From contig JANRCR010000015.1 of assembly GCA_030726915.1 (NCBI GenBank), positions 1 to 42,033 of the forward strand: a stretch of 42,033 bases of DNA. The letters run 5' to 3'. The notes under the pieces were generated by a model. The model did not search any database. It saw nothing but the letters and a program-made list of their open reading frames with translations, and was not told the DNA's origin. The stretch is from Candidatus Nanopelagicales bacterium (GTDB taxonomy: Bacteria; Actinomycetota; Actinomycetes; S36-B12). A program made the position numbers and the translations under genes. Shown in pieces: positions 39,732-41,962 of this stretch; the first letter of the stretch is position 1; the number at the start of each line of letters is the position of its first letter.

Positions 39732-40517
39732 TCACACGGTGGCCGGCTGGCAGTACGGACACCAGTAGGCGTCGCGCACGAATGTGCCGCTGGCCTGCTT
39801 GCCGAAGCGGATGCGGGTCCCGCATCGCAGGCACGGCCGCCCCGCGCGTCCATAGACGTAGTGTTGTGCCCGCAGATTCCCGGTGGAGGCTTGCGCCCCG
39901 CGACCGCGGTTGGCTCGCATGAGGTCCCGCCCGGTTGTCACCAGCGCGGGCAGCTCTGGGACACAGTGGAGCGGCGTCAGGGGTGCGATGCCGCGCAGAT
40001 ACAGAGTCTCGGTGACGTAGATGAGCCCAAACCCGGCAACAATGGACTGGTCCAGCAGCGCATCGCCGATGGCGCGATCAGGATGGGCGCGCAAGCGGTC
40101 CACGACATCCTCGATGTCGACGTTGTCGTCGAGGATGTCCGGACCGAGTGTGCCGAGGAGTCGCTCCACGCCGCTGGAGTCGAGTACGTCAACGACGGGC
40201 AGCCGATAACCCACGGCCTGCCACTGTTCGGTCGCAAGGACTGCTCGCACCTGCCAGTCGGGTCCGCCGCGCCATGTCCGACCGTGTCGATAGAGGTGCC
40301 ACGAGCCGTCCATGCGGAAGTGCGTATGCAGGGATAATGCGCCACTGAGTCGGAAGAGCAGGTGCTTGCCGTAGGACCGGACTCCCTCGACCGTGCGCCC
40401 CACCAGATCGACGGTTGCCAGTCGTGGGACCCGCAGGTCCGCGGTGGTGAGCACATCACCGGCGAGGCAGTCATCGAGCCGGCGAGCGGCCAGCCAGACC
40501 GTGTCTCCCTCAGGCAT
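39732..40517 (-). CDS. nei: Fpg/Nei-family DNA glycosylase
   Basis: N-terminal MPEGDTVWLAARRL, C-terminal zinc finger CLRCGTRIRFGKQASGTFVRDAYWCPYCQ. Confidence 0.93.
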   Translation of the reverse strand: MPEGDTVWLAARRLDDCLAGDVLTTADLRVPRLATVDLVGRTVEGVRSYGKHLLFRLSGALSLHTHFRMDGSWHLYRHGRTWRGGPDWQVRAVLATEQWQAVGYRLPVVDVLDSSGVERLLGTLGPDILDDNVDIEDVVDRLRAHPDRAIGDALLDQSIVAGFGLIYVTETLYLRGIAPLTPLHCVPELPALVTTGRDLMRANRGRGAQASTGNLRAQHYVYGRAGRPCLRCGTRIRFGKQASGTFVRDAYWCPYCQPATV

Positions 40518-41412
40518 GCACCGATTCTGGACCCTCCGTGGCCGTCGGTGCCACCTCGCGGTCGCGGCGTACGGTCCGGACGACGAAAGCGATGGCAAGG
40601 AGGCCCATCGCCAGGAGCATGGCGTACGTCATCCACCAGACGGCGGCAGGAGCGTCGAGGGCGCCGAGGATGAGCCGGGCGTTGAGGAGGCAGATGAAGA
40701 CGCCGACGACGACGCCGAGGATCCGGGCGTTGAGGAAGCGGACCAGCATGGCCGCGAGGGGCGCCGCGATGATGCCACCGATGAGGAGGGCAATAACGAT
40801 GCCGAGGTCAATGCCCGAGGTGCCCAGACCGACGAAGAAGCCCAGGCTGGCCGATAGGGCGACGACAAATTCCGAAGTATTGACGGTGCCGATCACGCGC
40901 GCAGGTGAGAGGCGGCCGTCGGCCAGCAGCGTGGGAGTGGTGACGGGACCCCACCCGCCGCCCCCGGTAGCGTCGATGAACCCCCCGACCAGGCCGAGTG
41001 GCACGAGGAGACGCAGCCCCGGGGTGCCCGGCTTGCGGCGGGGAGCGCGGCCCATGACGAATCGCGCAACGATGTAGATGCCGAGGAGGAACAGCAGTGT
41101 TCCGGTGAAGGGCAGCGCAGCCTTGGTAGACAGATGGGACAGCAGCGTGGCGCCAACAAAGGCACCGATGGCGCCCGGCAGGGCAATACGTCGGACGCCG
41201 GACCAGTCGACATTGCCGTAGCGCTGATGGGCGATGCCGGAGGCGGCAGCGGTGCCGAGCTTGGCCAGGTGGACCGAAGCTGAGGCAAGGGCCGGACTCA
41301 AGCCCACCGCAATGAGAAGGGTCGATGAGGTGACTCCAAAGCCCATCCCCAGCGCGCCATCGATGAAGGACGCGCCGAAACCGGCGAGAGCAATGAAGAT
41401 GAGCGTATTCAC
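40510..41412 (-). CDS. TauE/SafE-family sulfite exporter-like permease
   Basis: GTG 41412: VNTLIFIALAGFGASFIDGALGMGFGVTSSTLLIAVG...GLVGGFIDATGGGGWGPVTTPTLL. Confidence 0.9.
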   Translation of the reverse strand: MNTLIFIALAGFGASFIDGALGMGFGVTSSTLLIAVGLSPALASASVHLAKLGTAAASGIAHQRYGNVDWSGVRRIALPGAIGAFVGATLLSHLSTKAALPFTGTLLFLLGIYIVARFVMGRAPRRKPGTPGLRLLVPLGLVGGFIDATGGGGWGPVTTPTLLADGRLSPARVIGTVNTSEFVVALSASLGFFVGLGTSGIDLGIVIALLIGGIIAAPLAAMLVRFLNARILGVVVGVFICLLNARLILGALDAPAAVWWMTYAMLLAMGLLAIAFVVRTVRRDREVAPTATEGPESVHA

Positions 41413-41433
41413 GGGGCCTCCGGGACCAGGGCT

Positions 41434-41472
41434 AGATGCTATTCTCACCTGACATAGGTGACAATAGCATCT
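41434..41472. promoter_or_regulatory. 39-bp inverted repeat covering the predicted tauE core promoter
   Basis: AGATGCTATTCTCACCT-GACAT-AGGTGACAATAGCATCT (16/17 arm match); minus strand TTGTCA-N17-TAGCAT; plus strand TTCTCA-N17-TAGCAT. Confidence 0.8.
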
Positions 41473-41512
41473 CAGCGGCCCCGTGGTGGGCAGACATGCC
41501 AGCGGATCGCGC

Positions 41513-41962
41513 TCAGTGCCAGGCGGCGGGGTCTTGGGTGAGGCGGCGCACGCGCGCGGGGAGATGCCCGCTGACAACATCGGCCAGGGATACGGCCTCG
41601 AGGATTTGGCGCTCAGCCGCCCGCAGGGCGATGAGCACCTGGGGGAGCCCGGCGGCAGGCCCGGTGAAGTGGAGGTCTTCAGGTCGGGAGCCGGCCACGT
41701 CAGTCAGTGCACCGTCAACGGCGCGGATGACATCCGCGAGGCAGATGTCTGCGGCCGGTCGTCCCAGGGTCCAGCCGCCGTCGGGACCCCGACGTGCCCT
41801 CACGAGACCTGCCTTGCGAAGTTCTGCGAGGATCGCGCCCAGGTACGACGTGGGGATGTCCTGGCGTCGCGAGATTTCATCCGTCGTAACGGGACCATCG
41901 GGCGTAGCAGCGAGTTCGAGGGCTGCGCGGAGGGCGTAGTCGGTCCGTCCGGGCAATCGCAT
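41513..41962 (-). CDS. Rrf2-family transcriptional regulator
   Basis: MRLPGRTDYALRAALELA...TTDEISRRQDIPTSYLGAILAELRKAGLVRARRGPDGGWTLGRPAADICLADVIRAVDG. Confidence 0.93.
   Translation of the reverse strand: MRLPGRTDYALRAALELAATPDGPVTTDEISRRQDIPTSYLGAILAELRKAGLVRARRGPDGGWTLGRPAADICLADVIRAVDGALTDVAGSRPEDLHFTGPAAGLPQVLIALRAAERQILEAVSLADVVSGHLPARVRRLTQDPAAWH

Follow-up and report, generated by a model that had tools for sequence, protein, structure and literature searches.

A 39-bp inverted repeat between rrf2 and tauE in a Candidatus Nanopelagicales genome as a probable operator of the adjacent Rrf2 regulator

The inverted repeat between the genes rrf2 and tauE of a Candidatus Nanopelagicales bacterium is probably an operator of the Rrf2 type that overlaps the promoter of tauE, which would be repressed by the adjacent Rrf2 protein. 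Based on sequence comparisons, we assign this reading a probability of a little less than four in five. The window analysed comprises 42,033 nucleotides and is an entire contig (C15) of a draft genome. The repeat (41434-41472, no strand assigned) consists of two 17-bp arms (41434-41450 and 41456-41472) separated by a 5-nt spacer, and 16 of the 17 arm positions (94%) are complementary. Repeats with arms of 17 bp, at most one mismatch and a spacer of 3-10 nt occurred once in the window and on average 0.0 times in 100 dinucleotide shuffles of it, so the repeat described in the initial annotation was confirmed by both its coordinates and its rarity. Both flanking genes are encoded on the minus strand; from the repeat it is 40 bp to the stop codon of rrf2 on one side and 21 bp to the tauE GTG on the other. 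The outermost pairs, which give the repeat its length of 39 bp in this species, are mostly asymmetric in relatives. Conservation in 10 genomes of the genus delimits an operator of 29 bp (41439-41467, no strand assigned), the putative site of an Rrf2 dimer, with a core of 27 bp that reads TATTGTCACCT-N5-AGGTGAGAATA on the minus strand. Rrf2-type operators are characterized by an inverted repeat, imperfect and about 23-29 bp long, at the promoter of a target gene, and such a repeat is present here.

The tauE gene (40510-41412, minus strand) encodes a TauE/SafE-family (TSUP) membrane transporter of 300 residues (PF01925, E=1.4e-38); its GTG start codon at 41412-41410 is preceded by the ribosome-binding site GGAGG (41417-41421, minus strand). 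The rrf2 gene (41513-41962, minus strand) encodes a winged-helix regulator of 149 residues, assigned to the Rrf2 family by PF02082 (E=1.5e-30), alignment A1 and the presence of both the winged helix and the dimerisation helix. The alignment reveals that the protein is devoid of the three cysteines that bind the Fe-S cluster and that no cysteine is conserved; the sole cysteine, at position 74, occurs in this species only. Scores are far under the cut-offs of the Fe-S class (IscR, NsrR, RirA, RsrR) and of every other named Rrf2 equivalog, including that of CymR (NCBIfam NF047409), for which 58.6 bits were obtained relative to a cut-off of 195. The AlphaFold model (pLDDT 82.5) matches RsrR, CymR and IscR, with CymR as the best structural match (TM-score 0.77/0.89, rmsd 2.2). 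The protein is probably CymR-like in the way it works, but the name CymR is withheld because of the low equivalog scores.

The genus sample consisted of 11 genomes, nearly all of them metagenome assemblies; the named relatives are assemblies of freshwater Actinomycetota, some of which are labelled Candidatus Nanopelagicales. The order rrf2, motif, tauE is kept in 10 of the 11, with a single motif copy in each that reads TATTGTCACCT-N5-AGGTGACAATA with variations. In the nine genomes other than that of the window, the rrf2 orthologues are 74-87% identical to the rrf2 studied here, and the adjoining tauE orthologues share 66-83% identity and the position of the start. In the remaining genome (G005, about 90% complete), orthologous rrf2, tauE and the site are all absent, such that the three are present or missing jointly in 11 of 11 genomes. 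A sequence model of the motif (R1), run genome-wide with E up to 10, matched once per genome, between rrf2 and tauE, and nowhere else. The window's own genome was also scanned with the 17-mer allowing three mismatches, which yielded one unrelated match, and with the pattern allowing one mismatch, which yielded scattered single half-sites only; R1 found no further copies there. Autoregulation is common in the Rrf2 family; it was not seen here, since no second copy of the motif was found ahead of rrf2 in the loci of the genus. In one of these loci (L011, G003:C43), direct repeats GGCCTCGGCAAGGCCCA..CAACCGTTTCTCCCACTTTGTGGGACAAACGG are inserted upstream of the operator, between rrf2 and tauE.

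Changes in one half-site tend to be accompanied by changes in the other. The covariation score of the half-sites is 0.199, compared with 0.101 in shuffles (reached in 0 of 500) and far over that of slid versions of the dyad. For example, a C..G pair immediately outside the core is replaced by G..C. Several species have a degenerate right half-site. Paired changes fit the binding of a symmetric homodimer and do not require an RNA hairpin.

In the initial annotation the repeat was read as an operator that embeds the whole core promoter of tauE, with a -35 TTGTCA (41464-41459) and, after 17 nt, a -10 TAGCAT (41441-41436) on the minus strand. Those hexamers are present, as are GGAGG, GTG and the plus-strand counterpart TTCTCA-N17-TAGCAT. 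They give rise to an alternative in which the repeat is a mirror-symmetric promoter that generates transcripts of tauE and, from the plus strand, antisense transcripts of rrf2. The minus-strand pair is the sole consensus match in the last 2.6 kb; one match of this type was found relative to 0.3 +/- 0.5 in shuffles, which is a weak indication. Moreover, TGNTANNNT occurs in both arms in this species, which makes a bidirectional start conceivable. Arguing against this alternative is the poor conservation of its elements: at the claimed -10 position, TAnnnT is found in 3 of 10 species in the sense direction and in 1 of 10 in the antisense direction, and antisense TGNTANNNT likewise in 1 of 10. As a conserved promoter, the sigma-A pair TTGTCA/TAGCAT was accordingly discarded, and we consider the mirror-symmetric promoter unlikely. 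The one arm mismatch does fall within the -35 hexamer, as had been stated, but it is private to the species of the window: in two relatives (G002 and G009) TTGTCA occurs on both strands. The directional preference for tauE derived from the mismatch is not supported.

The overlap between the operator and a promoter of tauE, in contrast to the hexamer pair that spans the dyad, is supported by comparison of the species. TGNTANNNT is found in the upstream arm, directed toward tauE and at a fixed place, in 10 of 10 species. In alignment A2, positions T3, G4 and T11 are invariant on the upstream but not on the downstream arm, and together with T6 and A7 they spell TGNTANNNT, the actinobacterial extended -10 motif. 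Within the 42-kb window it occurs three times, two of which are the arms of the repeat. The predicted extended -10 of tauE is TGCTATTGT (41461-41469, minus strand); TANNNT is kept at this place in the sister genus g7. The mirror copy TGCTATTCT (41437-41445, plus strand), a possible antisense extended -10, is not kept in relatives. Antisense transcription toward rrf2, as had been suggested, is therefore possible in the window species only. In Mycobacterium tuberculosis, TANNNT was found at 73% of the primary start sites, a -35 motif was not found, and TGN increases promoter activity (PMC3898074). Given the conserved extended -10 in the upstream arm and the promoter pattern of M. tuberculosis, the tauE start is predicted within the dyad, in the spacer (41451-41455, minus strand) at about 41454 +/- 3, and the leader would measure some 42 nt. 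On this placement, the operator would extend from the -10 to about +20, a position probably suited to repression by occlusion.

A further possibility is that the operator serves some regulator that is not the adjacent Rrf2. It would be consistent with the single site per genome, the lack of a site ahead of rrf2 itself and the lack of a published consensus for this Rrf2. Against it stand the joint presence or absence of rrf2, site and tauE and the occurrence of dyads of the same length, together with related rrf2 genes, at sulfur genes of other lineages. Elsewhere in Actinomycetota, related rrf2 genes accompany those of ssuABC sulfonate transporters, with a dyad CTATTTCCTACT..AGTAGGAAATAG that has the length of the genus dyad. 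In Nonomuraea, the ssuABC operon, whose SsuA scores above the NCBIfam cut-off, ends with the related rrf2, and CTATTTCCTACTTAATAAGTCGTCTATAT or close variants immediately precede ssuA; in N. antri, which has no transporter genes there, the dyad lies immediately ahead of rrf2. The same rrf2-ssuABC operon, with a similar dyad, is found in Asanoa. Several genomes of the order have a related rrf2 that adjoins ssuA, with dyads of the same length upstream; in G017, ssuA and rrf2 are divergent and the dyad occupies the region between them. Where tauE orthologues are located away from rrf2, in other genera of the family (G013, G018, G021, G022, G030), a dyad is found shortly before the start codon. 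The 3 kb around the homologues from Streptomyces, Actinomadura and Actinoallomurus revealed no dyad that was convincing.

A second model (R2), built from the 29-bp dyads of the related lineages and run over 59 genomes, revealed seven new places that were outside the training set and previously unseen. Five of them immediately precede genes of the TauE family (G034, G043, G023, G015, G028; identified by Pfam in three cases and by tblastn in all), and another precedes cysD in G019. The match on contig C166 of G019 (E 0.83) lies within a coding sequence and presumably arose by chance. The matches are individually weak (E about 0.005-0.8), but chance would hardly have placed five of the seven before genes of one family. 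R2 did not match in genomes of the genus at E up to 1. The half-sites differ, TTGTCACCT in the genus and TTTCCTACT in the sister clade, and it is therefore by their length, their symmetry and the gene context that the two are connected. In a tree of 46 Rrf2 proteins, a quick tree with some long branches, the tauE-linked clade is separate from the ssuABC-linked clade, and G008 holds members of both. Its second, ssuABC-linked Rrf2 (L137, G008:C46) has its own dyad, ATATTGTCGATAGAGATGCTAGGAAATAG, ahead of ssuA; the site ahead of cysD in G019 (L151) is asymmetric and similar to ATATTGTCGATAGAGATGCTAGGAAATAG. In another family (L016, G038:C7), rrf2 is followed not by tauE but by a gene for an Fpg/Nei-like glycosylase, with CCGGTCTGACCGGAACC-like repeats in the gap. 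In several genera, a moeA-like gene adjoins TauE-family genes of a second type, which are 64-72% like the one in G016 (L141, L146, L148).

Sites of the same kind at sulfur-metabolism genes, a search for which the initial annotation had proposed, thus exist in relatives at ssuABC, tauE-family genes and cysD. The site is kept with its cognate rrf2 gene and at several targets, with one target only in this genus. Joint occurrence, single copy number and the dyads at sulfur genes support the assignment of the repeat to the adjacent Rrf2, and a different regulator appears quite improbable.

The arms might also act as RNA, by forming a long hairpin in rrf2 read-through mRNA that either masks the start codon of tauE or causes transcription to terminate. 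The operator is itself flanked by a further inverted repeat, CACGGGGCC/GGCCCCGTG (41410-41418 and about 41478-41486), which is perfect over 9 bp and would extend this hairpin; in read-through RNA it would pair the start codon of tauE, a feature that is not general among relatives. The predicted fold is strong (-53.1 kcal/mol, z = -3.7), the GTG pairs with CACGGGGCC, and there are compensating changes in the arms. Yet the sequence itself is conserved beyond pairing, just 72% of the pair cells pair, and a transcript initiated at the predicted promoter would be without the upstream arm. Start-codon pairing is predicted in some relatives, such as G004, and is low in G002, G009, G003 and G006, which eliminates the hairpin as a general mechanism. 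We regard an RNA element as highly improbable; hiding of the start codon would be a secondary effect at most. An intrinsic terminator and a known RNA family are dismissed, since no T-run follows the GC-rich stem on either strand and no Rfam family was matched.

The Rrf2 operator reading can be compared with systems already known. CymR controls sulfur-acquisition genes as a cysteine/sulfur regulon and acts with CysK as a cysteine sensor. CymR of Bacillus and Staphylococcus and the Rrf2 of the window share a cluster-less Rrf2 fold and a link to sulfur genes, but in this genus a single tauE gene, rather than a global cysteine regulon, would be controlled. The Rrf2 winged helix is also common to RsrR, NsrR and IscR, the former two from Streptomyces; the system described here differs from these in the lack of cluster cysteines, the 11-5-11 dyad of other sequence and the sulfur-transport targets. 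Those of RsrR that lie at its own divergent promoter are believed to obstruct the site of the polymerase. Known Rrf2 operators are inverted repeats of 23-25 bp (PMC9338935, PMC5015018), among them the 11-3-11 operator of RsrR (PMC5015018) and the 23-bp operator of ScNsrR (PMC9338935). In Rhodococcus qingshengii, the CymR/Rrf2-like IGTS8_peg394 was tied to sulfur metabolism by proteomics (PMC8557817), which makes it another actinobacterial Rrf2 with such a link; unlike the rrf2 studied here, it has a neighbourhood without sulfur genes, and no operator or target is defined in the parts of the report considered (PMC8557817).

We infer the following sequence of events. A homodimer of the cluster-less, CymR-like Rrf2 would bind the 27-29 bp dyad with one subunit on each half-site and thereby cover the extended -10 and the predicted tauE start, which would keep RNA polymerase off and repress tauE. 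A sulfur-related signal, for which sulfite, sulfonate, cysteine status and reactive sulfur species are candidates, would release the repressor and permit transcription of tauE, whose product would export what may be a sulfur compound. A sister Rrf2 in related lineages would recognize the same dyad, though with a different sequence in the half-sites, at ssuABC, at cysD and at further genes of the tauE family. More broadly, the cluster-less Rrf2 subfamily may be a general repressor of genes for sulfur import, export and assimilation (ssuABC, tauE-type, cysD) in Actinomycetota, of which a sister copy would have specialized on tauE in this genus while its DNA specificity changed from TTTCCTACT to TTGTCACCT; we consider this an evenly balanced proposition.

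A literature search retrieved no paper on the control of tauE or ssuABC by Rrf2 in actinobacteria. The operator itself is an ordinary type of switch, and the novelty is in the regulon rather than in the repeat. For a group of Rrf2 proteins whose targets were not found described in that search, these results provide an operator, a promoter and a target that can be put to the test. They connect TauE-family exporters with the type of switch that also serves sulfonate uptake and cysD, and the sister regulators with changed half-sites make it practicable to study how specificity changes within a family of repressors.
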